This document shows, in pieces, positions 32,545 through 49,257 of a stretch of 64,000 nucleotides of DNA. The first letter of the stretch is position 1; each line of letters starts with the position of its first letter. The stretch is from Brevibacterium mcbrellneri ATCC 49030 (GTDB lineage: Bacteria; Actinomycetota; Actinomycetes; Actinomycetales; Brevibacteriaceae). A model generated the notes under the pieces. It worked only from the letters and a program-made list of their open reading frames with translations, was not told the DNA's origin and did not search any database. A program made the translations under genes and the position numbers. The stretch lies in NCBI RefSeq assembly GCF_000178455.1, contig NZ_ADNU01000039.1, forward strand, positions 1-64,000, in the 5' to 3' direction.

Positions 32545-33192
32545 TCAGCCTAACGCGCCAATCACTATGATCACCAGCGTTCCGATGATGAGGTATGGCC
32601 CCAGAGCGATCGCAGTTTTCATGGTTGCTTTGCGCATGATCATCAGCACGACTCCCACCGCAAAGCCCAAGAGCATTCCGATGAACGGGCCCAAAAGTAG
32701 CGCGAACCAACTGTAGGTTCCCAGCACAGCCCCCATCGACAGGCCAAGCTTCACGTCACCGAACCCGAACGCTCCCCCAGCAACGATGAACATGACGAAG
32801 AACGCGGCGAACAAGATGAGCATGCCGGCACCACCTCGCAAGGCAGGCCCCCAGTCACCAGACGCCAGTCCCCCAACGATCAGCGCAATGACACTCGCAC
32901 CTGCCGCCGGCAACGTCACCACATCGGGCAACCTGCGTTCAGCAAAGTCGATCGCAGTCAATATAGGGGAAACCGCCACAAACACAGCTGCCACGTACGC
33001 GCTCGGGTGGTTCCACCCGTACGCAACCAGGGTGACAACGGCCAGCACGCCACCGGCACCGAACAGCGCAACGAGCACCCACCTCGGCGGGTTCCACGTC
33101 TCTAACAGGCGGTAGCCACGGTCGGCGGGTTCCACCTCGGCGGGGTTCTGGGTAGATTCACCGGAATCCAGATCGTCATGATGCTCGCTCAC
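32545..33192 (-). CDS. Type IV prepilin peptidase (A24 family, TadV/CpaA-like)
   Basis: A 215-residue membrane protein. The N-terminus is acidic and hydrophilic, then about six helices follow. Both catalytic aspartate motifs of the A24 family are present: AIDFAERRLPD and the hallmark FGFGDVKLG. It cleaves the leader of class III prepilins just after a glycine on the cytoplasmic side. In this window its likely substrates are Flp pilin, TadE-type proteins and the large pilin-leader proteins at 60-64 kb. The GTG start overlaps the stop of the preceding 136-aa membrane gene (GTGA). It lies in the operon divergent from the tad genes. Confidence 0.87.
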   Translation of the reverse strand: MSEHHDDLDSGESTQNPAEVEPADRGYRLLETWNPPRWVLVALFGAGGVLAVVTLVAYGWNHPSAYVAAVFVAVSPILTAIDFAERRLPDVVTLPAAGASVIALIVGGLASGDWGPALRGGAGMLILFAAFFVMFIVAGGAFGFGDVKLGLSMGAVLGTYSWFALLLGPFIGMLLGFAVGVVLMIMRKATMKTAIALGPYLIIGTLVIIVIGALG

Positions 33193-35234: not shown

Positions 35235-37043
35235 CTAGCCTTGTGCGGTGGGTGATGGCCGAGGTGTCGAAGAGTTGGGTGCGCTTGCAGACTGGGTGCG
35301 GTTCACTTTGATTTGCGCAGTATCTGCCACGCGGATGATGAGTTCGTCTGACTCCATGCTCACTTTAGGGAAGAAAGCAAACATTTCGATCGGCTCCCCA
35401 CGAGCAACCGCATAGTCAACCGGGCTCATCGTTTGCGAACACAGACAGTTACCAGGCCCCGCCGTCACAGTGGTCGCCATCATGTTTGTTGTCTTATCCC
35501 ACAGTGCCAGATTGCTCAGCGATGGAGTGGCGGGATACTCAGCGGTGAAGTTTTGCCCGAACGGCATTGTCTCGACTTTCGAATCCCGTTGGCTAAACGC
35601 GGATGCATCGTCTTGTCCGGATGCTGTACTTATCGCGACAGTCAATTTCAGAAAGTCTCCCTGCTCTTCCAGCGCTTTGACATCAAAATTCAGCTCAGGT
35701 GTACTTCTACCCTTAGGAGTGGGAAGGATGCCTGCAGTGATGCCCCCGTTCGATGTTGCTGATTTCATTTCTGGAAGGTCTTTGATTTTCTTGCCAGCGT
35801 CGACATTTGCATCGATCTGACCTTGAGGCGTGTAACTAAACGAGACGCGTCTGTTCTTCGCCTGGTTTTTCTTGATGGGGTTTCCTTTGCCGTCGCGGTT
35901 AGGCACGATCGGTTTTGTCTCACCGAATCCTTTTGTCTCTAACTGAATTCCAGCACCAGAAAGCTTAGGCTCAACGGCTTTTTTGACTGATTCCGCGCGA
36001 CGCTCGGATAGGCCTTGGTTATATCCTTCATCACCTTCGTCATCAGTGTGGCCCTCGACCACAACCTTCTGGCCCTTCGCTGATTTCTTCAGCTCTTCAG
36101 CGACTGAATCAATCGTTTTCTGCGCGTCTTTGTTGAGTTTGTCCGAGTCAAACTCAAACAACACATCCGCACTCACGTTCAACGCAGAGGTATCACCTCG
36201 ATTAGATACCGAAGCATCGGTTACAGATTCAGTATTCACATCCATCGGGATCCGCCTCTGCCCTACAGCACCAGAGCCGTAAACGTCAGGCAAAGCGTCT
36301 TGACCGATCTTAATGAAGTTAAAATCTACAAGCTCCGGAACGTCGAACTTCTTGCCACTACTGACTGTGACACCTTCAAGAACCGCTGCATTGTCGCCAA
36401 AAAACAGCGAAACTTCATCAGCCTCGGGCGCAGGGAAATCCGCGTAGAACAAACGCAACGACTTTGGCGCGGTGGACGTGTCGTCAATCTCTTCGGGCCC
36501 GTACGAGCACACGCAGTCCGTGTTTCGCGTGACTTTATCAGTGGCAGGCAGGTCCTTGGCCCGAGGTGGATTCTTAAATGAGCCATCTGCTAATTTACTT
36601 GTCCCCTGATAGGGCTCAATGAACTCATGAGCCTCAAAATCAGCAAGCCTCGTCCACGGGACGAGTTGTGAACGCCCTTTTTGACTAAGTAGCTCATCTG
36701 GCGCAAGGTACTGACCCTCCACCGGTGGCAACCAAGCCGCGACCATGCGCGCAGATTTACCATCAGAATCCAAAGACACCACTTCAAGCCGAGCCTTCGC
36801 CGGACCATCATCAGTAGGACGCTCAACCACTTTTTTCGCTAGCGGTTCGCCTAGCGTGTTCGGGCGCCAAAAACCGTCGCTCTCGATCATTTCGGGAGCG
36901 GGAGGCTGCACACCACCACCGCCACCGTCACCATTTCTCCCTATGCCAGGGATGCAACCAGAAAGAACCAACGCCACGACGGCCAAAACCGTCATGCCGC
37001 CCATGCGTGCCTGTGACAGGGAAGGGAACGCAACAAACTTCAT
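35235..37043 (-). CDS. OmpA-domain lipoprotein with paired CxC motifs (paralogue 2)
   Basis: A 602-residue exported lipoprotein with lipobox LSGC near residue 30 and a Gly-rich linker. The N-terminal domain has a CVC motif (about residue 178). The OmpA C-terminal domain runs from about 292 to 398 (ADVLFEFDSDKL, GHTDDEGDEGYN, LSERRAESV, NRRVSF). A C-terminal domain of about 200 residues carries a CLC motif. A Ser/Pro/Thr tail closes the chain. A block after the lipobox (PPAP then MIESDGFWRPNTLGEPLA) is almost identical to paralogue 3. Peptidoglycan binding is inferred from the OmpA domain. It is the third gene of the leftward operon opposite the tad genes. Confidence 0.85.
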   Translation of the reverse strand: MKFVAFPSLSQARMGGMTVLAVVALVLSGCIPGIGRNGDGGGGGVQPPAPEMIESDGFWRPNTLGEPLAKKVVERPTDDGPAKARLEVVSLDSDGKSARMVAAWLPPVEGQYLAPDELLSQKGRSQLVPWTRLADFEAHEFIEPYQGTSKLADGSFKNPPRAKDLPATDKVTRNTDCVCSYGPEEIDDTSTAPKSLRLFYADFPAPEADEVSLFFGDNAAVLEGVTVSSGKKFDVPELVDFNFIKIGQDALPDVYGSGAVGQRRIPMDVNTESVTDASVSNRGDTSALNVSADVLFEFDSDKLNKDAQKTIDSVAEELKKSAKGQKVVVEGHTDDEGDEGYNQGLSERRAESVKKAVEPKLSGAGIQLETKGFGETKPIVPNRDGKGNPIKKNQAKNRRVSFSYTPQGQIDANVDAGKKIKDLPEMKSATSNGGITAGILPTPKGRSTPELNFDVKALEEQGDFLKLTVAISTASGQDDASAFSQRDSKVETMPFGQNFTAEYPATPSLSNLALWDKTTNMMATTVTAGPGNCLCSQTMSPVDYAVARGEPIEMFAFFPKVSMESDELIIRVADTAQIKVNRTQSASAPNSSTPRPSPTAQG

Positions 37044-37617: not shown

Positions 37618-39441
37618 CTAAGGGGTGGAAGTCGGCTCAGAAGTGGACTGAGAAGGTGCACTACTTGGAGCGTCCGACTGTCCGGTCGAACCATTGCGGT
37701 TAAACTCCATCTGCGACATGCCACCAACACGCAGCGTAAGCGTGTCAGAAGTGATGCCTTTCTTGGGGAAGAACGCAAACATTTCTACAGCTTCGCCACG
37801 AGCTTTGTCCTTATCCGTTGGTCGCACAGACCGCGAGCACAGGCAGTCCAGTGGGCCGGCTGTCACCGAGTGAGCCAGCAGGTTGCTCGATTTGTCCCAC
37901 AGCTGCATGTCGATCGTGGTGGGAGTGTCCCTGTAGTGAGTGACCGGGTTGTTTCCAAAGGCCATTTTTCCTTCAATGTTGGCTCCTTGCGTAAAAGCCC
38001 GTTCAACATCTTGACCAGATGCCGTTCGCAAGGCAAAAGTCACCTTCAAGAACTCGCCATACTCCTCAAACTCTTTGATATCTAGCTGCATTTCAGGAGC
38101 ATCGGTATCTTTCGGAGACGGAACAATCCCACTGGCTATGGAGTCTGTGGAATCGCCTGGCTCCATCTTTTTCAGGTCAGAGATTTTCTTGCCAGTGTCC
38201 ACGTTAGGGTCGATATCTCCTTGGGGCTTATAACTAAACGAGACCCTGCGATTTTTCGCTTGGTTCTTCTTAATAGCGTCGCCACCGGCAGTGCGGTTAG
38301 GAAGAATAGGTTGCGACTCCCCAAAGCCTTTCGTCTCAAATGAAATTCCCGAGCCCTTTACCTTTGGTTCGAGAACTTTTTTGACTGACTCAGCACGGCG
38401 ATTCGACAGGTCGACGTTGTATTTTTCATCACCCTCATCGTCGGTGTGGCCTTCAATCGTCACCTTCTGGCCCGCCGCTGATTTCTTTAACTCATTCGCG
38501 ATGCCGTCGATCAGTTTCGAATCGGAGTCTTTAACTTTGTCTGAGTCAAAATCAAACAAAACATCGGCGCTCACGTTCAATGCCGATGAGTCACCCCGGT
38601 CAGACACCGAAGTGTCCATGACCGATTCAGTAACAAGACTCATGGGGTAGCGCCTCTCATAAATTGCGCCGCCACCGTACGGGTTAGACAGGTCTTCTTG
38701 GTGGGCCCAACGGTAATCAATTTCTGTCAGTTTAGGTGCTTCATAACGCTGGTTCTCGCTGAGCTTCACATCAGTGAATACGGCAGCGTTGTCGCCAAAA
38801 GCAATGCCAACGGAGTCCGAGGACGGAGCCGGGAAGTCTGCGTAAAAGAGTGGGACGGATTCTGGTTTTTCCCCTTGGTATTCCTCAGTCTTGGGGATGT
38901 TTGAGCAAGTGCAGTTTGAGTACGCTCTTTGGAATTCGTCCGGTCCTGTTGGCTGGGGGTTGGGTTCGTTTTTGAAGTTGTCGGAGTACTGCAACTTTTC
39001 GCCCTCATAGGACGATAGAAGCTCGTGACTTTTAAAGTCGAGAAGACGAATGAATGGCATATCTGAAACTGTCGCAAGCTCAGTCTGAAGCTCAGACCCC
39101 TCAAGGTACTTACCCTCAACGGGTGGCAACCACGCCGCGACCATGCGCGCAGCCGTGCCACCAGAATCGAGCGACACCACTTCTAACCGAGCTTTCGCTG
39201 GACCGTCATCAGTAGGACGCTCAACCACTTTTTTCGCCAGCGGTTCGCCTAGCGTGTTTGGACGCCAAAAACCGTCACTCTCGATCATTTTGGGTGCAGG
39301 CGGTTGCTGACCGCCCCCACCGCCGTCACTTCCTCTACCCAAGCCGGGGATACAGCCGGTCAGGACCACAGTGGCAAGAATCAGTGTGGCGAGAACACTC
39401 AAACGGGGGCGGCGTACAGCGGGGATTATGAGGGGCTTCAT
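37618..39441 (-). CDS. OmpA-domain lipoprotein with paired CxC motifs (paralogue 3)
   Basis: A 607-residue lipoprotein with lipobox LTGC near residue 30 and linker CIPGLGRGSDGGGGG. The N-terminal domain has CTC (about 177), the OmpA domain spans about 293-400 (ADVLFDFDSDKV, GHTDDEGDEKYN, LSNRRAESV, NRRVSF), and the C-terminal domain has CLC (about 532). The chain ends in a Ser/Thr/Pro tail. It is the first gene of the leftward operon. Promoter TTGCGT-N16-TATAGT ends 8 nt before the ATG and there is no Shine-Dalgarno, so the operon mRNA is probably leaderless. It is closely related to paralogue 2, by a tandem duplication with the small lipoprotein between. Confidence 0.85.
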   Translation of the reverse strand: MKPLIIPAVRRPRLSVLATLILATVVLTGCIPGLGRGSDGGGGGQQPPAPKMIESDGFWRPNTLGEPLAKKVVERPTDDGPAKARLEVVSLDSGGTAARMVAAWLPPVEGKYLEGSELQTELATVSDMPFIRLLDFKSHELLSSYEGEKLQYSDNFKNEPNPQPTGPDEFQRAYSNCTCSNIPKTEEYQGEKPESVPLFYADFPAPSSDSVGIAFGDNAAVFTDVKLSENQRYEAPKLTEIDYRWAHQEDLSNPYGGGAIYERRYPMSLVTESVMDTSVSDRGDSSALNVSADVLFDFDSDKVKDSDSKLIDGIANELKKSAAGQKVTIEGHTDDEGDEKYNVDLSNRRAESVKKVLEPKVKGSGISFETKGFGESQPILPNRTAGGDAIKKNQAKNRRVSFSYKPQGDIDPNVDTGKKISDLKKMEPGDSTDSIASGIVPSPKDTDAPEMQLDIKEFEEYGEFLKVTFALRTASGQDVERAFTQGANIEGKMAFGNNPVTHYRDTPTTIDMQLWDKSSNLLAHSVTAGPLDCLCSRSVRPTDKDKARGEAVEMFAFFPKKGITSDTLTLRVGGMSQMEFNRNGSTGQSDAPSSAPSQSTSEPTSTP

Positions 39442-39651: not shown

Positions 39652-40413
39652 ATGACCCCATCCCCAACTGTTTTGCATACGGACACGCTGGAGTTTGACG
39701 AGGTCGCAGACCGCATCAAACAGTGCCCTGACTCCAGTCGCTCTTTTTTTGTTGTCCCCATTGCACAGAAAAAAGAGCGAATCGCTCAAATCTTTAACGC
39801 TCGTGCCGTCAGCATGCACAACCAGGTCGTGGTCCATGTTTCCCAGCTATCCCCGCTAGGGATCACCGTTCTAGCCGATATGCTTCACGTTGCTAAAGAG
39901 TCACTTTCGACCGCGCAACTCGCAGCGTTTGCTACCGAGCTTGAAACAGCAATCACATGCAGCGCTTACCTCCGCTCCGTCACGAAATTGCAAGTATCAC
40001 GAACCAATATGTGGCATCACGTGATGAGCTGGCTACCTCCAACGCGCTTCGTCGCCACGGCGCACGCGGGAGTACACTTCGCAAAGAAGTTTGACCAAGA
40101 CGCGGAGTATTGGGAAGACAACGCTCACGAAGTTCTGTTCATAAGCGACTTACGGGAACAACAGTCAACCCTCAACCCACAGAGAATTGCTGAACTCGCG
40201 CAGGCTTCATCAGTGACAACCCGAAACGTACATGACGCGGGGTTCTGGGGCACCAAACCAGTTTTTGAATGGGTTTTTGCACCCACCGACCTGTGGGCGC
40301 ACGTTGACAACATCAGGAATCGTTCAACGCTGTGCCCGTGGTGTTCCGAGCCTTATGTCCCCCCACGTTGCGCGGTTTGTAGCGCACCATCCCTGATTGG
40401 AGAAACTCAATGA
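39652..40413 (+). CDS. Hypothetical protein with C-terminal zinc ribbon, first gene of tad operon
   Basis: A 253-residue protein with no recognised domain in its first 220 residues, which lack signal or membrane segments, so it is probably cytoplasmic. The C-terminus has CPWCSEPYVPPRCAVC, a four-cysteine zinc ribbon. AGAGAA precedes the ATG. It overlaps cpaB by 4 nt (ATGA), so it is co-translated with the pilus genes and probably serves the Tad machine, perhaps as a regulator or adaptor. No similar Tad component is known to me. Confidence 0.7.
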   Translation: MTPSPTVLHTDTLEFDEVADRIKQCPDSSRSFFVVPIAQKKERIAQIFNARAVSMHNQVVVHVSQLSPLGITVLADMLHVAKESLSTAQLAAFATELETAITCSAYLRSVTKLQVSRTNMWHHVMSWLPPTRFVATAHAGVHFAKKFDQDAEYWEDNAHEVLFISDLREQQSTLNPQRIAELAQASSVTTRNVHDAGFWGTKPVFEWVFAPTDLWAHVDNIRNRSTLCPWCSEPYVPPRCAVCSAPSLIGETQ

Positions 40414-41189
40414 ACCCGAAGCAACGCAGGGGCCTACTCCTCATGATTGCGGCTACATTGCTCGCAATCATGGTCTTCATCGCAGTTGTCGTGTACGTGC
40501 AAAACGTCTCGTCTAAGGTGGGCCCCACAACCGAGGTGTACGTTGCAAAAGAGGACATTACTGCATTTCAACCTATCGAGCAGGACATGCTCGAAACTAA
40601 AACAGTCCCAAACCGTTACATCACGGAAGACATGGTCACGAGCCTTGAGCAGGTTGCAGGACAAAAGGCATCCGTAAAAATTTCAGCTGGTTCCTTCATC
40701 CAAACAGACGCCATCGAACCGGCATCTTCAATCGAAGACGGCCAACGTGAAATCTCGATCACCTTCGTTGGTGACGCTGGAGTTAGCGGGCGTGTTTCCC
40801 CGGGAGACAAAGTCGATGTCGTCGCTTCATTCGCGCGTGCACGCGAAAACGACCAAGGCGAAACCGCATACAAACGCGCCGACATTCCTTACAACGTTTC
40901 CGGAATCGTCGTGAGCAACGCGACCGTTGTCTCCGTCGGCCAACCGGTAGACCCAAATGCCGTTGTGGGAGCCGCTGACCAGTCTGGCGCTGAAGCTGAA
41001 GCAGTAGCGGTGACGTTCGCGGTATCGGTAGAAGAAGCCGGGCGTTTGTCCTACGCAGAAGCCTTTGCAGTAAGTATGCGCGTTATGCGAATTGGCAATA
41101 ACGAAACTGGAACCAAGGTCAACGAATCCGACAAGTCCTTCGACGACCGTGATTTGCAGGGCACGATTTCTGGCGAAGGAGATAAGTGA
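40410..41189 (+). CDS. cpaB: Flp pilus assembly protein CpaB/RcpC (SAF domain)
   Basis: A 259-residue protein with an N-terminal membrane anchor (residues about 8-29) and then a SAF domain, EVYVAKEDITAFQPIEQDM. The second half carries the RcpC-type motif DVVASFARARE. In Tad systems CpaB lies on the outer face of the membrane and has an SAF fold thought to bind wall carbohydrate. It follows the zinc-ribbon gene (ATGA overlap) and overlaps the next gene. Its length is typical. Confidence 0.85.
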   Translation: MNPKQRRGLLLMIAATLLAIMVFIAVVVYVQNVSSKVGPTTEVYVAKEDITAFQPIEQDMLETKTVPNRYITEDMVTSLEQVAGQKASVKISAGSFIQTDAIEPASSIEDGQREISITFVGDAGVSGRVSPGDKVDVVASFARARENDQGETAYKRADIPYNVSGIVVSNATVVSVGQPVDPNAVVGAADQSGAEAEAVAVTFAVSVEEAGRLSYAEAFAVSMRVMRIGNNETGTKVNESDKSFDDRDLQGTISGEGDK

Positions 41190-42745
41190 CAATGACATCC
41201 GCCGTGCTCATTAGTTCGAGTGAGGATCGAGGCACAAACATCCGTGCCTCACTGGGTGACGCAGGCCTCACAATCTACCGGCAGTATTCCTCGACGTCTG
41301 CGTTCCTGGCGGCACTGCCTACTATGTCCGATGAAGTCGACCTCATTGTGATCGACCAGGACGTTGAGCCTATCAACGCGTGGGACCTAGCTCGAGAAAT
41401 CTCGATGCGTTTCCCTGCGCTTCCCACCGCGGTAGTGCTCGACTCTCCCACCCAAGCAGACTATGCCCGCGCAATGGATGCGAATATTCGGAGTGTCATT
41501 GCCTACCCGCTTGAGTTTGAAGATGTCCAGCGGAAAGTCCAGTCGGCTCTCGCCTGGGCAAAAACAGTTCGCACCGTAGTGTTCGACCGGACTGCTGAAG
41601 GGAGTTCACCCAGCAAAGCTGGACGCATGATCACACTGTCCGGTTCTAAAGGTGGTGTGGGAGTTTCTACAATCGCTACTCACCTAGCTCGTGAAGCAGC
41701 TAAAGCCGACCCCAGCAAAGCGATCGTTCTTGTGGACTTTGATCTGCTAAAAGCCGATCTATCAATCGTGCTGAACGTACCCCAATCACGCACTGTCACC
41801 GACATTCTTGGCGTAGTTGAGGAGCTGAGTCGGCAACAGATCCAGGATGTGCTGTACACATCTCCCGACGGATTCAGTGTCTTCTTCGGCCCCAAGAATG
41901 GTGAAGAGTCAGAGCTTGTAACAGAGCTAGTAACGCGGAAAATTTTTGGTCAGCTTCGCTCCCATTTTGACCTGGTCATTGTTGACGCTGGGTGCCACCT
42001 GAATGAAGCCAATTCGGCGGCCATTGAGATGGCTGACGACGCTTACATCGTAGCAACGAGCGATGTGCTCAGCCTCAGGGGTAGCCACCGGCTTGCACAG
42101 CTATGGAAGCGCCTGGGGATACGACCCACGGACAGCTCAAAAGTCATTCTCAACAAGGTCAACAAGAAACAAGACCTGCAGCCTGAAGCTGCCAAGAAGG
42201 TTGTAGGACTTCCTGTCATTCCTCAATACATTCCAGAATCAATTAGCGCAATTGAACTCGCAATGAACCACCGTGATCCAAGTCTTGTCACACCAGTCTG
42301 GTCGGCACGCGTCAAACGGTTGGGAGCAGAAATGGGAATCCTGCCTGAAGAACAGTTATCAGTTGCACCCCCTCCAGCCAAACCCAAGAAGCGCAAGACA
42401 AGGAAACGCAACAGAAAAGAGCGCGGACAAAGCACACTTGAGTTCGCCGGAATTTTCGTACTCTTCATCTTCATCGCCCTTGTAGGTTTTCAGTCAGTGC
42501 TGCTGGGCATGACCTGGATCTACGCGTCCGGAGCGGCTAACGAAGGTGCACGTGCGGCAGCGGTGAACGAATCAGCTGTGAGCGCAGCAGAAAGCCACAC
42601 TCCAGCCGCGTGGCGCAAGAACATGTCTGTCACCCAGTCGCACGACTCAGTGCACGTAAGCATTAAGACGCCCACCATTGTTCAAATGAGCGAGCGTTAC
42701 GCACTTATCATCAACACCTCAGCCGGAATCGTCAAGGAGGACTAG
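41186..42745 (+). CDS. TadZ/CpaE ATPase fused to a TadE pseudopilin
   Basis: A 519-residue two-part protein. Residues 1 to about 130 form a receiver-like domain. About 145-385 make a MinD/ParA-type ATPase (SGSKGGVGVSTIATHL Walker region, LVDFDLLKADLS, LVIVDAG), as in TadZ/CpaE, which positions the pilus machine. A Lys/Arg-rich linker (KPKKRKTRKRNRKERG) leads at Gly414 into a class III prepilin motif, G|QSTLEF, followed by a membrane helix and a TadE-like tail. Usually tadZ and tadE are separate genes. The reading frame is uninterrupted, so the fusion looks real. Cleavage by prepilin peptidase after Gly414 would separate the two. Start is GTG 41186 or ATG 41192. Confidence 0.85.
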   Translation: MTMTSAVLISSSEDRGTNIRASLGDAGLTIYRQYSSTSAFLAALPTMSDEVDLIVIDQDVEPINAWDLAREISMRFPALPTAVVLDSPTQADYARAMDANIRSVIAYPLEFEDVQRKVQSALAWAKTVRTVVFDRTAEGSSPSKAGRMITLSGSKGGVGVSTIATHLAREAAKADPSKAIVLVDFDLLKADLSIVLNVPQSRTVTDILGVVEELSRQQIQDVLYTSPDGFSVFFGPKNGEESELVTELVTRKIFGQLRSHFDLVIVDAGCHLNEANSAAIEMADDAYIVATSDVLSLRGSHRLAQLWKRLGIRPTDSSKVILNKVNKKQDLQPEAAKKVVGLPVIPQYIPESISAIELAMNHRDPSLVTPVWSARVKRLGAEMGILPEEQLSVAPPPAKPKKRKTRKRNRKERGQSTLEFAGIFVLFIFIALVGFQSVLLGMTWIYASGAANEGARAAAVNESAVSAAESHTPAAWRKNMSVTQSHDSVHVSIKTPTIVQMSERYALIINTSAGIVKED

Positions 42746-42746
42746 C

Positions 42747-43139
42747 GTGGTATCCCGACTGATCAAGCGGTCTCGGCAACAGGGTGCAGTTAGCCTGGAG
42801 TTTGTGGGAATGCTTTTTGCCTTCTTCATTATTCTTGTTACTGCTCTTCAAGCCATGCTTGCAGTGTTTTCTCTTTCGCAAGCTAACTCTGCCGCTCGTA
42901 ATGCCGCACGAGCGGAAGTCCTCAACCCCGGTTCAGGAGTTACAGCCGCACAGCACGCAGTTTCTCCTGGATTACGTGATGCGGGTGTTTCGACATCGTG
43001 TAGCGGCACCCGAGTACACAACGGGTCAATCACGTGCAAGGTGACAGTTGCTGTCCCTAACCTGGGCACCGACTCTTCCCTGTGGTTGCCAACCCTAAAA
43101 GTCAGTCGTTCAGCAACACAACCAATCACAACGGAATAA
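42747..43139 (+). CDS. tadE: TadE-family pseudopilin
   Basis: A 130-residue protein with a basic leader and class III motif G13|AVSLEF (Glu at +5), followed by one membrane helix of about 24 residues. The soluble tail of about 95 residues contains two cysteines. GGAGG precedes the GTG start. TadE-type pseudopilins are processed by prepilin peptidase and help the Flp pilus assemble. This copy follows directly after the fused TadZ-TadE gene, so the operon encodes two TadE-like domains. Confidence 0.87.
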   Translation: MVSRLIKRSRQQGAVSLEFVGMLFAFFIILVTALQAMLAVFSLSQANSAARNAARAEVLNPGSGVTAAQHAVSPGLRDAGVSTSCSGTRVHNGSITCKVTVAVPNLGTDSSLWLPTLKVSRSATQPITTE

Positions 43140-43143
43140 GTGA

Positions 43144-44505
43144 ATGTCACTACTCAAACGCGCCGAACAGCAGAGGCAGCTTAGGGGTACCCTTGGTACC
43201 GATAAGGACATTGACCCTAGGCAGTCGAGTTTCAACGAACAAGTAAGTTTCTACCGCCGGCTACTTCTTGAAGAAGTCGATCTGGAAGAACTTTCTAAGC
43301 TTGAACGTACACAGAGACGTGTCCGCCTGGAACGCATCCTAAGCCACCTGCTTTCACAACAAGGTCCGGTCCTTTCCGCACGTGAACGATCGCAATTGAT
43401 ACAACGCGTAGTGGACGAGTCTCTGGGACTCGGTATTCTCGAACCGCTACTGGCTGACGAATCAATCACCGAAATCATGGTGAACGGGCCTAACACCATT
43501 TTCGTTGAGCGTGCGGGGCGCCTTGAAAAACTTGACCTTTCGTTTAGCAACGACGAACAGTTGATGCAGGTCATTGACCGTATTGTTGCGGAAGTGAATC
43601 GGCGCGTTGATGAGTCGTCGCCCATGGTGGACGCTCGCTTGCTTACGGGCGAACGTGTCAACGTCATTGTCCCCCCGCTGGCGATGGATGGCCCCACCCT
43701 CACCATTCGACGCTTTCCCAAACCGTTTACCCTTGAGGACCTGCAGAACAAGGGGAGCTTTGATGAGCTCACCCGCGAATTCCTCATGGCGTGTGTCAAA
43801 GCACGTTTCAATATTGTGGTTTCCGGCGGTACAGGTACTGGGAAAACCACCATGCTCAATGCTCTGTCGGGCATGATTCCCGACGGCGACCGTATCGTCA
43901 CCATTGAAGACTCGGCAGAACTCCAGCTTCAACAACCGCACGTCATTCGCCTTGAATCACGCCCGCCAAACGTTGAAGGTAAAGGTCAGGTGACTATCCG
44001 TGACCTCGTAAAGAACTCCCTACGTATGCGTCCCGACCGCATTATTGTTGGTGAGGTCCGTGGTGGTGAAACACTCGACATGCTCCAAGCGATGAACACG
44101 GGTCACGACGGATCATTGGTAACAGTTCACGCTAATAACCCGCTCGACGCGGTATCACGTCTGGAAACTTTGGCCAGTATGAGTGAGGTTAAGGTTCCGT
44201 TCGAAGCCCTCCGCGACCAAATTAACAGTGCTGTAGACCTCATTGTCCAGCTGGGGCGTGGAGCTGACGGTTCACGTCGTATGACCGAGGTCGCTGCTGT
44301 GACATCGGAAAGCCGCGAAGAATTCGAGCTTACGACCCTCATGAAATTTGAGTCGGAGCCTCTGACCGCTGACCGCGTAGTGCGCGGAAGACACGTGATG
44401 CGTCAGATTCCTGACAACATCGCCGACCGACTCTGGATCAGTGGTAACGGGCTTTCAGAAAACTTCGACATTTCACCCACCGCTGCGTGCAGGGGTGGTC
44501 ACTGA
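43144..44505 (+). CDS. cpaF: CpaF/TadA secretion ATPase
   Basis: A 453-residue type II/IV secretion ATPase. Visible features are an N-terminal helical domain ([16 protein letters not shown]) and [20 protein letters not shown]. Walker [15 protein letters not shown], lies near residue 230, followed by the Asp box ([10 protein letters not shown]), Walker B region ([17 protein letters not shown]), and His box ([11 protein letters not shown]). It powers extension of the Flp pilus from the cytoplasm. The tadB gene begins on its stop codon. Length is typical of actinobacterial CpaF. Confidence 0.93.
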
Positions 44506-45431
44506 TGATGCTTGGGATTCTCCTCGGTACCCTCGCTGTACTGGTCCTGGGTTCGATCGGGCTTGTTGTCTTCGCGCTTGGAACCGGCGAACAGCACGAC
44601 ATCGTTCGCGCCGAACGGTCTGGCGGTACAGTGTCATTCCGCTCGTCCCGCATTTTTCCTGCAGATCGAATCTTCCGTAAAACGAGGTTTGGGGACAAAC
44701 TCTCACAGCAACTTATTCAAGCGAATCTGCGTTCCATCACATCTATCGAGTACCTCCTCATTGCACTTCTCATCACTGCAGTTGTTTTCATTATCTTGAA
44801 CCGCTACATCGCGATTCTCTATGCATTTCTACTTTCAGCACTCTTGCTTTTCGGGTTTTGGAAAGTTCTTGACGTGCTAAAAGAACGTCAGCGCGCAAAG
44901 TTCTTTCAGCAGTTGCCCGAATTCGCACGCATCATGGCGAACTCAACCGGCGCTGGATTGTCTATCCACACGGCACTTGGTGTTGCCGCTTCTGAACTTC
45001 CAGACCCTGCCAGCCGGGAGTTTTCCGCCCTCAAGCGCGAATTAGAAATCGGAACCCCTCTCGACATCGCTCTCGAACGCATGTCTGAAAGAATCTCCGG
45101 ACGTGACCTCGATGTTTTAGTGAGTACCTTGGTGATTGCACAGCGATCAGGCGGATCCCTGATCTCTTCGCTTCGCAATATGAGCGACACGCTGGAGTTC
45201 CGCAAGGAAACCAAACGCGAAGTAAAAACGCTCGTTTCCCAGTCGAGCTATACGGGTTATTTGGTAGTGGCGTTTGGGGTTGGGTTCGTTCTTCTTCTTG
45301 CCAGTTTCAATGATGGTCTTCTGTTAAAACTCACCTCAACAATCATTGGACAGATTGCGATCGTCATCGCCACTGTCTGTTACGCAATTGGCCTTGTTGC
45401 TATTAACCGCCTAGTCAAGGTCAAGCTATGA
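44505..45431 (+). CDS. tadB: Tad pilus membrane platform protein TadB
   Basis: A 308-residue membrane protein with a T2SSF domain: NSTGAGLSIHTALGVAASE, EIGTPLDIALERMSERI, and VLVSTLVIAQRSGGSLISSL. Two N-terminal and two C-terminal helices flank it. It is half of the TadB-TadC platform that the CpaF motor acts on. ATG 44505 overlaps the cpaF stop (TGATG) behind AGGGGTGG; ATG 44508 and GTG 44487 are alternatives. It overlaps tadC by 4 nt. Confidence 0.88.
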   Translation: MMLGILLGTLAVLVLGSIGLVVFALGTGEQHDIVRAERSGGTVSFRSSRIFPADRIFRKTRFGDKLSQQLIQANLRSITSIEYLLIALLITAVVFIILNRYIAILYAFLLSALLLFGFWKVLDVLKERQRAKFFQQLPEFARIMANSTGAGLSIHTALGVAASELPDPASREFSALKRELEIGTPLDIALERMSERISGRDLDVLVSTLVIAQRSGGSLISSLRNMSDTLEFRKETKREVKTLVSQSSYTGYLVVAFGVGFVLLLASFNDGLLLKLTSTIIGQIAIVIATVCYAIGLVAINRLVKVKL

Positions 45432-46321
45432 TCGTAGGACTGTTAGCGGGTCTCCTAGCGGCTAGTGCCGTCATTATTCTTTATCTTGGTTTCCGTGCTT
45501 ATCGCACCGACCCACTGAGTAGCCTTTCTCCGGAAGACAGGGCGCTTATCAAAGATGAGACCCGCCTCAAACGACGTGCGGACGGTCCTGTCAAGCGCCT
45601 TGGCGCTCGATTAGGACCGAGCCTCGGTCGCTTGTTCGGGGGCAAGTATCCCAGCTGGGTAGAGTCAAAAATCCAACTCACCGATAAGAAGCAGTACCAG
45701 GACTTTACCGGGTTCATGGCTTTCAAAGGTTCAGTATTTCTGCTGTGCGCAGCAGGTGGTGTTTCTATATTCCTTGTCACAAAAGCACCACTCATTTTGT
45801 TCATATTTATCGCGATCGGACTACTTTTCCCTGATTTTGCACTCATACAATCTGGACGAAAACGCCAAGAGGCAATTGAAGATAGCCTGCCAGATTTTCT
45901 CGACGTTCTTGCCGTTACTGTTTCGGCGGGTCTCTCGTTCCGTTCTGCAATCGCGAAAGTCACCGAAAGAACGCAAGGACCACTCGCGGATGAGCTCAAT
46001 ACTGTTTTGCACCAGCTAAATATGGGCGAGACCGTTTATGATGCGTTTTCTGCACTTCGCAAGCGAACAACTTCAGAATCTCTAGACTCCTTTATTACGA
46101 CACTCTTGCAAGCGGAAGAGCTCGGTGCACCTCTCGCTGACACACTGGCTACTATCGCATTAGATATGCGACAGACGACGGCCCAGCGAGCACGTCAAAA
46201 AGCTGCAAAAGCGTCCCCAAAGATTGCTGGAGTCGTAACAATCATCATGGTGCCGGGAACTATGGCCCTCATCATGGTTTCTGTCTACTTCGTGGCAGGA
46301 CTCGACGAGCTGAGCTTTTAA
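45428..46321 (+). CDS. tadC: Tad pilus membrane platform protein TadC
   Basis: A 297-residue membrane protein with a T2SSF domain, with LPDFLDVLAVTVSAGLSFRS and QLNMGETVYDAFSALRKRTT, and flanking hydrophobic helices. It pairs with TadB to form the Flp pilus assembly platform. The ATGA overlap with tadB indicates coupled translation. The middle of the gene (about 45700-46100) is noticeably more AT-rich than the purine genes, as is much of this operon. Confidence 0.88.
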   Translation: MIVGLLAGLLAASAVIILYLGFRAYRTDPLSSLSPEDRALIKDETRLKRRADGPVKRLGARLGPSLGRLFGGKYPSWVESKIQLTDKKQYQDFTGFMAFKGSVFLLCAAGGVSIFLVTKAPLILFIFIAIGLLFPDFALIQSGRKRQEAIEDSLPDFLDVLAVTVSAGLSFRSAIAKVTERTQGPLADELNTVLHQLNMGETVYDAFSALRKRTTSESLDSFITTLLQAEELGAPLADTLATIALDMRQTTAQRARQKAAKASPKIAGVVTIIMVPGTMALIMVSVYFVAGLDELSF

Positions 46322-46322
46322 C

Positions 46323-47510
46323 GTGGTCACGACGAAGCACCGGTATAGCGATAGAGGCACCAGAACACTCGAGACGAAGAGCATCACAACTCAACTCGGA
46401 AAATTCATCATCGTGTTAAGGATGGTGCTTCTATACCCCGTTCTTATTGCTTGGGGGGATTCAGAGTACGCATTCTGGGAAACAGCAGGGGTAGTCGTAC
46501 TAGCGTCTGTCTCCCTTATCACTTTTTCCTTTTGGGACAGTGTAGTCACGTTCGCTGTAAAACATCCTTTGGCAGTCAGCATCGACATTTTTATTTCAGT
46601 TTTAGTCATGGCGCGAGCTGGATCAAGTTCGTCATATTTTCTCTACTTGGGTGCAACTGCGCTCCTCATTGGTCTGCTTGTCGATGGAGTTAACCGCGTA
46701 ATTCTGACCGGCCTGCTCATTGCGGGTTTCCTTCTCATTACACTCACGAACGGATCACCAAACCATACCTCTGCGCAACAAGTCGTAAGTGACCTTATTT
46801 CAGCGTCTATTATCGTTCTTTTTGTCATTTTGGGAGCACGGATGCGCACGCTCCAAGCCCAGGTCAATACAGCATTACAACTCGCAACCCGCAACGCTCG
46901 GGAAGCTGCTCTGGGAGAAGAACGTTCACGCATCGCCAGAGAGCTTCACGACTCAACAGTCAAGTCGCTTGTTGGTATTTCGCTCTTATCCGACACAATT
47001 CGGAAGCAACCCGACGCCAGCGCCCGGCTGGCACAAGCAATTAAAAATGCTGCCGAATCTGCTGTCGACGAATCACGACAATTATTGAGCAATCTTCGAA
47101 GTGGCACTTCAGATAATTTCGAAAAGCTCCTTCGTGCCGGACTCGATGAAATCGAGGTCGTTCATGGTATTTCAGTGGAGCTCGTAATAAATGGATGCGA
47201 GGTCAGCACCGAGCATGCGCATAACGTCGAAAAGATCATTATCGAAGCGGTTACGAACGCGGCACTGCACTCGGGTACTGACAGAGTACGCGTCGCTTTC
47301 ACACAATCCGATACACGCATGCGAGTCACAGTGACTGACTACGGCGAAGGCTTTCGTGTACGCCAGAAAAGAGAAGGCCACATAGGTTTAACGAGCATGC
47401 GTGAACGCGCCACTGATATTGGAGGAACACTCGCAATCAGTTCAACTCCCGGAAAGGGCACAGTCGTGCTGCTCGATATCAATCAAGAGCAAGGAGAGGC
47501 ATATGTCTAA
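46323..47510 (+). CDS. Sensor histidine kinase (NarL-type partner, HisKA_3)
   Basis: A 395-residue membrane kinase. About six N-terminal helices form a sensor with little extracellular material (residues about 25-175). A coiled stretch is followed by the HisKA_3 phosphoacceptor motif ERSRIARELHDSTVKS with His at about 209. The HATPase domain has ATP-lid pieces VTDYGEGFRV and GHIGLTSMRERA. It follows tadC by 1 nt and overlaps its response regulator gene by 8 nt, so it belongs to the tad operon and probably controls it or related surface genes. The GTG start has a weak ribosome-binding site. Confidence 0.87.
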   Translation: MVTTKHRYSDRGTRTLETKSITTQLGKFIIVLRMVLLYPVLIAWGDSEYAFWETAGVVVLASVSLITFSFWDSVVTFAVKHPLAVSIDIFISVLVMARAGSSSSYFLYLGATALLIGLLVDGVNRVILTGLLIAGFLLITLTNGSPNHTSAQQVVSDLISASIIVLFVILGARMRTLQAQVNTALQLATRNAREAALGEERSRIARELHDSTVKSLVGISLLSDTIRKQPDASARLAQAIKNAAESAVDESRQLLSNLRSGTSDNFEKLLRAGLDEIEVVHGISVELVINGCEVSTEHAHNVEKIIIEAVTNAALHSGTDRVRVAFTQSDTRMRVTVTDYGEGFRVRQKREGHIGLTSMRERATDIGGTLAISSTPGKGTVVLLDINQEQGEAYV

Positions 47511-48174
47511 GAGCATTCGCGTAGTAATCGCCGACGACAATGGAATTGTTCGTATGGGTCTCGAATCCCTTCTTGCAGCCACCGACTCCGTTGAAGTCGT
47601 CGCATCAGTGGAACACGGATCTCTAGCGGTGAAGGCAGTCGAAGAACTCAAGCCTGACCTGTGTCTCTTGGACGTACGCATGCCGGTGATGAACGGAATC
47701 GAGGCAACCAAAGAAATATCGAAAACGTGTAAAGTGCTCATGCTGACACACAGTGAAGATGCCGAGAATGTAACTGCCGCAATATCCAATGGCGCCAGTG
47801 GCTATGTTGTCTATAGCGAGCTAAATACTGATTATATCTACCAAACGATGCAGTCAGTTCTGGCGGGCGCCATGGTTGTTTCCCCTACTGCCTCAAGCGC
47901 ATTGTTGAGCCCCACCCCCCACGTCGAAGAGCACTTAGATAAGAATGTGAGCGAACCCAGCAGTGCCACAGTTCCGTCTCCTACCGATCAGTTCGGACTC
48001 AGCCGACGCGAAACTGAAGTGATGGTTTTAGTGGCAGATGGACTCAACAACCGCCAAATCGCCGAAAGCTTTTTTCTAAGCGAGAAGACCGTGAAGAACC
48101 ACATCAACCGCATATTTGCCAAAATGAACGTCACATCACGCGCTGAAGCGGTCAGCATATGGCTCAAACGATGA
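47503..48174 (+). CDS. NarL/FixJ-family response regulator
   Basis: A 223-residue two-domain regulator; ATG 47503 follows AAGGAG, and the longer frame upstream lies inside the kinase gene. The receiver domain has the acidic pair VVIADDN and phosphoacceptor LLDVRMPVMNG (Asp56). The output domain is a LuxR-type helix-turn-helix, SRRETEVMVLVADGLNNRQI, with dimerisation helix. It should be phosphorylated by the kinase encoded just upstream. Its targets probably include the flp promoter region 150-odd bases downstream or the divergent operon. These are inferences from position. Confidence 0.9.
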   Translation: MSKSIRVVIADDNGIVRMGLESLLAATDSVEVVASVEHGSLAVKAVEELKPDLCLLDVRMPVMNGIEATKEISKTCKVLMLTHSEDAENVTAAISNGASGYVVYSELNTDYIYQTMQSVLAGAMVVSPTASSALLSPTPHVEEHLDKNVSEPSSATVPSPTDQFGLSRRETEVMVLVADGLNNRQIAESFFLSEKTVKNHINRIFAKMNVTSRAEAVSIWLKR

Positions 48175-48238: not shown

Positions 48239-48317
48239 AGCATATGCGGAATAGTTAAACATGTCAGACAGAACGTCAGGCACACCCTCAACCCGGACAT
48301 ATCTCGAAAGGTACATC

Positions 48318-48563
48318 ATGAACAAGCTCGAACTCATGGCTCACAAGGTAGACGTTAACGCTCGCGCATTCGCTGAGCTCGCAGTCGAAAAACTCCAGGA
48401 ACGCCGTGAAAACGGACAGGGAACCATTGAATACCTCGGTATTGCAGTACTCATCTCCCTGCTTGTTGCAGGATTGGTTGGAGCATTCAAGACTGACATC
48501 GCGAATGCACTTAAGGAGAACATCGTGAACGTCATCTCCAACATTTTCGGAAACACTCAGTAA
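48318..48563 (+). CDS. flp: Flp-family type IVb pilin (major pilin candidate)
   Basis: An 81-residue prepilin; ATG 48318 is chosen because AAAGG lies 6 nt upstream. An unusually long cytoplasmic leader of 33 residues (MNKLELMAHKVDV and onwards) precedes the class III cleavage motif G33|QGTIEYLG, with Glu at +5 and Tyr at +6. A membrane helix and a short amphipathic tail follow (ALKENIVNVISNIFG). The mature pilin would be about 48 residues. It is the presumed major subunit of the Tad pilus, lying beyond the regulator genes and before a TadG-like gene. Its leader motif is shared by three larger proteins at 60-64 kb. Confidence 0.92.
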   Translation: MNKLELMAHKVDVNARAFAELAVEKLQERRENGQGTIEYLGIAVLISLLVAGLVGAFKTDIANALKENIVNVISNIFGNTQ

Positions 48564-48591: not shown

Positions 48592-49257
48592 ATGAAGTTT
48601 CGCTTAAAGCGCGAGGACGGCCAGGTCTCCCTGGCCGTCCTCCTGCTGTCAGTGTTGGTTATCGCCGCCGCGGTCGGAGCATTTATCTTCGGTGAGGCGA
48701 ACGACTCACGTACGCGTGCACAAAAAGCCGCAGACGCTTCCGCACTCGCCGCAGCACGCGACGTGCGAGAACGCTTCATCCCCGCGTTTGCACGTGCGCA
48801 CATCCCACCGCCTCCTGTTGCGGGCCCCGCAGTACCAGCGAATCCAACCGTGGTGCTGTCTCCATTGGGCGAGGTGGGACGCCACGGTGCTTTCACGTTT
48901 GCCCAGAAAAATGAGTCCCAGCTTTCGCGCTACGTCGCCCAAGGAAACCGGTTCGAAGCAAACGTGCAGTCCAACAAGCGCGAAGTTGGTTCACCAGTGG
49001 GGTCTCGTGCGCGCAAAAAGATCAGTGCTCCAGGCGATGCCGTAGCGAAGATCAAAACAGAAAACGTACACTGCTATTCGACGAACATTAAGCGCGCACC
49101 AACGAAACCATTCCACGTTTTGTCATGGTCGATGGTGTGTTCCGGCAACGGCCACACAGCCCGCGTCAACTATTTCGGAGCAACCACAACTTTGAGTGAC
49201 ATTGACTCACGCAAAAAGGAGTGGCGTCGTGTGTTTGACATCAAACTCGACAAGTAG
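48592..49257 (+). CDS. TadG-like pilus-associated protein
   Basis: A 221-residue protein with a short basic N-terminus, motif DG|QVSLAVLL, a membrane helix and a soluble domain with two cysteines (residues about 160-185). The helix is followed by ANDSRTRAQKAADASALAAAR, the TadG/TadE-like pattern (PF13400). Unlike TadE it lacks Glu at +5 (Ala instead), so it is probably not cleaved by prepilin peptidase and stays anchored. It starts 28 nt after flp and ends at a strong terminator, so it closes the pilus transcription unit. Confidence 0.83.
   Translation: MKFRLKREDGQVSLAVLLLSVLVIAAAVGAFIFGEANDSRTRAQKAADASALAAARDVRERFIPAFARAHIPPPPVAGPAVPANPTVVLSPLGEVGRHGAFTFAQKNESQLSRYVAQGNRFEANVQSNKREVGSPVGSRARKKISAPGDAVAKIKTENVHCYSTNIKRAPTKPFHVLSWSMVCSGNGHTARVNYFGATTTLSDIDSRKKEWRRVFDIKLDK

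Follow-up and report, generated by a model that had tools for sequence, protein, structure and literature searches.

Among the components of Tad (type IVc) pili, TadZ (CpaE) is described as having an atypical Walker A motif, binding ATP with low ATPase activity and recruiting further components of the machinery as a hub at the pole (PMC6668835; here and below, papers are cited from excerpts). Minor pilins of the TadE, TadF and TadG types make up a tip complex that primes the Tad pilus, and their processing is required (PMC12075869); prepilin leaders vary in length and have Gly or Ala as their last residue, and processing must precede assembly (PMC10191384). A review of monoderm pili (PMC6916266) describes as open both what TadZ contacts and how the assembly complex stays together. 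We analyzed a stretch of 64,000 nucleotides from Brevibacterium mcbrellneri ATCC 49030 (contig NZ_ADNU01000039.1, positions 1 to 64,000; the whole stretch is called the window here), in which a single gene joins a TadZ/CpaE hub protein to a TadE minor pilin. Judged from sequence, the balance tips modestly toward a pro-protein that is cut after Gly412 by a prepilin peptidase and that keeps the hub and the tip-starting pilin together until the cut.

The fusion has the receiver-like and MinD/ParA layout, the place in the tad cluster and the atypical Walker A motif of TadZ/CpaE, but it adds a C-terminal membrane pilin precursor; with the TadE minor pilins or pseudopilins (PF07811) it shares the class III signal G|x4-E, the hydrophobic helix, the small outer domain and the cluster position, but its leader is longer than 400 residues and contains a folded ATPase. 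PilM and PilN of type IVa pili, which are fused in C. difficile (PMC6916266), likewise join a cytoplasmic protein to a partner in the same machine that crosses the membrane once, although the folds differ (MinD/ParA here) and the membrane partner in our case is a pilin with a predicted cutting site. The TadB-TadC fusion of M. luteus tad-2 (PMC4322843) also unites neighboring tad genes in an actinobacterium, but it joins two like membrane proteins and has no cutting site. Our search of the open-access literature, exact phrases included and with subscription journals mostly outside its scope, found no description of a TadZ-TadE or CpaE-TadE fusion in the text available; it may have been published elsewhere or be visible in domain databases.

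The fusion gene lies in one uninterrupted frame (41186-42745, forward strand, in an open reading frame check of the window). Alignment with relatives favors the ATG at 41192 over the GTG at 41186 as the start, and residues are numbered here from that ATG, the junction glycine being Gly412 (Gly414 if counted from the GTG).

41192-42745, forward strand: cpaE/tadZ::tadE fusion gene, 517 amino acids (519 from the alternative GTG start at 41186)
41192-41557, forward strand: receiver-like N-terminal domain, residues 1-122 (AlphaFold2 model; Foldseek match to the two-domain structure 3fkq)
41624-42331, forward strand: MinD/ParA-type ATPase domain, residues 145-380 (Pfam, AlphaFold2 model, Foldseek)
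42335-42427, forward strand: basic linker and leader, residues 382-412, with Gly412 (-1) last
42428-42742, forward strand: TadE minor pilin part, residues 413-517, with Glu417 at +5 and a helix (410-457) followed by a small domain

Pfam matched AAA_31 at residues 145-306 (E 1.1e-10), Response_reg at 16-116 below its cut-off (18.9 versus 30.2) and TadE (PF07811) at 412-454 with 23.1 bits, barely above the gathering score of 22.9. An AlphaFold2 model built with 34 relatives (mean pLDDT 89.2, pTM 0.56) contains a receiver-like alpha/beta domain (1 to about 122), the ATPase (about 145-380), the helix at 410-457 and a small domain with strands; pLDDT drops below 50 at 389-393 and 398-410, in the disordered basic linker, and a pTM of this size despite the high pLDDT is expected of domains on a flexible joint. 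The top Foldseek matches of the model were 3ea0 (ParA family), FleN and 3fkq (an Eubacterium rectale two-domain protein), in keeping with the TadZ/CpaE layout of a receiver-like domain followed by a MinD/ParA-type ATPase. We take 3fkq to be the E. rectale TadZ structure that PMC6668835 cites (its database entry says only NtrC-like two-domain protein), and 3ea0, from Chlorobium, is presumably a TadZ as well (the entry says only ParA family ATPase). PilM has an actin-like fold, and no such fold was present among the best 50 Foldseek matches listed, all of which were MinD/ParA/Fe-protein or receiver proteins. The fusion scored 45.6 bits against a curated cut-off of 154.45 with the NCBIfam model Ssd / CpaE_hom_Actino (TIGR03815) and was not assigned to Ssd. 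No NCBIfam model gave a match spanning both halves, so annotation pipelines can label such genes MinD/ParA-like and overlook the pilin.

At the junction the protein reads G412|QSTLEF, a predicted cleavage site of the G|x4-E pattern ahead of the hydrophobic helix. An initial annotation of the window, made from the letters of the DNA, had proposed a receiver-like domain, a MinD-type ATPase and a TadE pseudopilin in one frame, with a prepilin-type site and the topology that this implies. Pfam, the structural model and the intact frame, which has neither a stop nor a frameshift at the junction, bear out the domains and their fusion, and the predicted site and topology agree with what had been proposed; the statement that tadZ and tadE are normally separate fell, and the claims about cleavage, one-to-one synthesis and the linker stood in part, as detailed below.

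The draft state of the window genome, in 96 contigs, speaks for a sequencing or assembly artefact, and relatives bear directly on this. A search with the single protein recovered no relative in the genome contigs, and an alignment of six fusions was used instead. Among 39 related genomes, 24 of them congeners, the halves share one frame of the same open-frame length in four congeners (G003, G008, G014 and G016), which are also the only congeners to match the ATPase half strongly (the other 20 do not); G028, from another family, is fused as well. Scanning named genomes with the alignment gave 39 loci: 38 fusions and L070, which reaches a contig edge while still inside the linker; the scan patterns lie in the ATPase half and do not select for TadE, but the query alignment was built from fusions, so that 38 of 39 cannot be read as a rate. 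By NCBI names these 39 loci are all Actinomycetota, with 37 in Actinomycetes, one in Thermoleophilia (Solirubrobacter soli) and one in Nitriliruptoria (an Egibacteraceae bin). The fusion that the initial annotation had suggested seeking in relatives was thus found, both in congeners and beyond the genus.

Of 246 genomes drawn evenly from the class, 96 contained a CpaE-like match of some kind. Matches above 160 bits were present in 39 of these genomes, the window genome included, with 15 fused and 24 split, counts that are dominated by one genus, g39 (4 fused, 17 split); counted by genus, the fused state occurs in 11 and the split state in 3. Among weaker matches (102 bits or less), the fusion state covers three fetched loci plus four loci from the congener search. 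A further ten fused loci, spread over nine genomes that lie outside the class, came from a sample of 346 genomes drawn from the phylum. Combined and with duplicates removed, the set holds 62 distinct fused and 24 split loci from Actinomycetota, spanning at least three named classes; removed from the 62 were L034-L037 (the same loci as L052, L053, L055 and L056) and L133 (its ATPase is identical to that of L072), and L070 and a further locus, L136, were counted neither as fused nor as split. PF07811 was matched at E of 0.01 or less by 16 of the 35 fusions of set A2, and the TadE assignment of the rest relies on a profile built here. An artefact, whose likelihood we put at next to nothing, is ruled out by the 62 distinct fused loci, which include complete chromosomes such as NZ_CP040020.1, and the fusion, which is confirmed, looks like a real, lasting arrangement and not a sequencing slip.

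The alignment of the junction was made without requiring the motif, although the TadE segments were located with a profile that included fusions and may favor such sequences. Glycine occupies position -1 in all 62 fused and all 24 split loci; at position +5, 55 of the fused loci have Glu and the other 7 Asp, while every split one has Glu, position -3 is Asp or Glu in 58 fused loci (Gln in the other 4) and Asp in every split one, and residues upstream of -3 vary freely. Since positions -1 and -3 lie on the cytoplasmic leader side and would be removed by cutting, their conservation fits recognition by a peptidase, and a junction that is alike in fused and split loci is to be expected if both forms give the same mature TadE. 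We propose that the hub TadZ/CpaE is made as the giant leader of TadE in one precursor. By the topology rule of prepilins, the hydrophobic segment of TadE would enter the membrane and the ATPase would stay in the cytoplasm, with the hub held next to the pilus-starting subunit, in the brief tethering that the initial annotation had put forward, until a prepilin peptidase encoded nearby cuts after Gly412. This would yield mature TadE and a hub protein with a basic tail, and mature TadE, a second TadE-like pilin and a TadG-like protein would then start the pilus tip. The number of distinct fused loci, the invariant glycine and the persistence of the same site after at least four changes between the fused and split states count for this proposal, as may the peptidase gene of the window.

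32545-33192, reverse strand: prepilin peptidase (A24 family, TadV-like), 215 amino acids, with a GFGD motif and PF01478 and no other Pfam domain

This gene, which encodes no methylase domain, lies about 8 kb upstream of the fusion, and its A24 family match (32662-32985, reverse strand) is the sole one found in the window genome (2,561,804 bases in 96 contigs). Together with the glycine it lends indirect support to the cleavage that the initial annotation had predicted. All four fusion-bearing congeners carry two A24 copies, compared with one in each of the seven tested among the 20 fusion-free congeners; the window genome has one. An A24 homologue occurs within the examined flank in 11 of 40 distinct loci.

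Several observations weigh against the proposed cutting. The acid at -3 is not universal, and the conserved Gly and Glu could instead serve the pilin helix. No A24 homologue is present in the examined flank of 29 of the 40 loci, and A24 genes occur in all 49 genomes searched, fused or not, so that their mere presence says little. The loci are relatives, some of them near-identical, and their counts are not independent events; a prepilin leader of such size was not met in the published passages. If the pro-protein reading is right, prepilin leaders would include not just short peptides but also a folded protein exceeding 400 residues. A bolder version describes a whole class of Tad pili, in which a crippled hub ATPase is the leader of the tip starter and the peptidase is the switch that releases the hub and at the same time arms the pilin, giving one hub per pilus start, with the arrangement ancestral in this actinobacterial lineage and later split in some lineages; we hold this version tentatively, as rather doubtful.

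The initial annotation had seen the Lys/Arg-rich linker as what a cytoplasmic leader needs. The richness is there in the window protein (11 Lys/Arg versus 3 Asp/Glu), but among the 37 proteins measured the net charge of the linker lies anywhere between -3 and +9; counted between the end of the ATPase profile match and the glycine, linkers span 25-244 residues, with a median of 52. As a separate observation, the loci with an A24 gene near the tad cluster are the window, L049, L053, L054, L056, L065, L066, L068, L074, L079, L080 and L082, in contrast with what the excerpt of PMC4322843 says on actinobacteria.

In split relatives the two genes remain very close: the candidate tadE start lies -17 to +22 nucleotides from the cpaE stop in 24 of 24 loci, with a 4-nucleotide overlap in ten, and in the split loci L107 and L108 it would give leaders of 82-93 residues. 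The one-to-one synthesis claimed by the initial annotation is plausible, but fusion is not needed for it, because split relatives keep both genes overlapping or adjacent. On a tree of 98 ATPase rows, a clade of 88 rows has an SH-aLRT of 100, each of its five main branches contains fused rows, and no fewer than four changes between fused and split states are implied; the trees are quick ones, with no bootstrap and with long-branch warnings, and alone cannot separate gain from loss. The presence of fused rows in all five branches makes the fused state the likeliest ancestral one, and it is, provisionally, probably ancestral in the clade; fission would then have happened repeatedly, and genus g39 may have undergone re-fusion. 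The expectation that tadZ and tadE are normally separate therefore fails in this lineage, where the fused state is common. In the ten distant CpaE rows, cpaE stands directly before tadA with no tadE match between.

So tight an overlap, in which a stop and start are easily lost or regained, and the interchange of the two states would suit a fusion that, cut or not, has no function of its own. The fused state has nevertheless been kept across the five main branches of the clade and in three or more named classes, within a fixed cpaE-tadE-tadE2-tadA order, and such long retention without benefit is less likely, though possible; we consider a functionless fusion quite improbable. A TadZ-TadE fusion that recurs and is reversible suggests that both proteins act at the same place and time, and the natural pairs of fused and split loci are available for comparison. 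In L094 (genome G251), cpaE and tadE are in the same phase, separated by one TGA and by a new ATG that is accompanied by a Shine-Dalgarno-like site, a snapshot of fission or fusion. L136 (G533:C15) is a CpaE-like locus inside the clade with neither a TadE nor a TadA match in 7 kb and a TGA within the match, perhaps a decayed copy beside the two fused copies of the same genome.

The ATPase half departs from the usual P-loop. Its Walker A motif in the window, KGGVGVST, is without the P-loop lysine and is atypical, as in TadZ/CpaE, and the lysine is replaced in all 87 clade rows (86 distinct, as L133 duplicates L072), by Thr in 53, Ala in 25, Ser in 6, Val in 2 and Cys in 1; these rows comprise the window fusion and loci L038, L047-L122 and L126-L135, in which CpaE is fused to or adjacent to TadE. 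Distant CpaE proteins have Lys in eight of ten, Arg in one and Thr in one. The clade-wide absence of the lysine suggests a scaffold, and the natural reading is that the fused ATPase would bind ATP but hardly hydrolyze it. A scaffold also fits a fusion that is never cut, in which the whole protein would be a one-pass membrane TadZ holding the platform in the manner of PilM-PilN, the second TadE-like protein being the working minor pilin. The fused PilM-PilN of C. difficile gives this a precedent, a second TadE-like gene comes next in the great majority of clade loci, and the excerpt on M. luteus reports that TadE and TadF were not detected in sheared pili and proposes a basal role for them (PMC4322843). 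An uncut anchor would nevertheless leave the invariant glycine without obvious reason, an uncut pilin could not exit the membrane, and repeated fission shows that a covalent anchor is dispensable; we judge it unlikely.

TadE might also be made separately, with a leader of normal length, from a start inside the fusion gene, and for the window gene this possibility is live.

42332-42334, forward strand: candidate internal start ATG (Met381), 5 nucleotides downstream of GGGAG (a consensus match only), which would give a 32-residue leader

An in-frame start with a Shine-Dalgarno-like site within 60 codons occurs in 17 of 62 fused loci, compared with 8 and 4 of 62 in the other frames, although the in-frame excess may reflect ordinary Val and Met codons. 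The remaining 45 fused loci have no such site and 10 of the 62 have no in-frame ATG, GTG or TTG there at all, whereas 21 of 24 split genes do have such a site. An internal start is thus not supported as a general rule, and we regard separate synthesis of TadE beside the fusion as very improbable.

The fusion gene sits in a Tad cluster, preceded by cpaB and followed by a second tadE, by tadA, tadB and tadC, then by genes for a histidine kinase and a response regulator, and finally by flp-like and tadG-like genes.

40410-41189, forward strand: cpaB/rcpC (TIGR03177 and PF16976 above cut-off)
42747-43139, forward strand: second TadE-like minor pilin, in the TadF position, with motif G|AVSLEF (PF07811, 23.3 bits)
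43144-44505, forward strand: tadA/cpaF extension ATPase (PF00437; TIGR03819 slightly under cut-off)
44487-45431, forward strand: tadB platform protein (PF00482)
45428-46321, forward strand: tadC platform protein (PF00482)
48261-48563, forward strand: flp-like major pilin candidate with motif G|QGTIEYLG; an inner ATG may be the true start
48592-49257, forward strand: tadG-like protein (PF13400 above cut-off)

A PF00437 protein is followed here by two successive PF00482 proteins, and the pair of minor pilins, TadE and TadF, is represented by the part within the fusion and the protein at 42747-43139, both barely above the PF07811 cut-off. The flp-like candidate matches Pfam Flp_Fap weakly, under the cut-off (E 0.076), and resembles the flp-position genes of L034 (45% identity) and L038. 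The histidine kinase and response regulator (46323-48174, forward strand) are NarQ/NarL-like, and a similar kinase follows tadC in L034-L038. Just before cpaB, 39652-40413 (forward strand) encodes a protein of 253 amino acids that has no Pfam match and, close to its end, carries two Cys-x2-Cys pairs; a similar gene precedes cpaB in L034-L037. Farther upstream of the tad cluster, two similar and probably duplicated OmpA-domain lipoprotein-like genes (35235-37043 and 37618-39441, both reverse strand) are present in this single-membrane bacterium.
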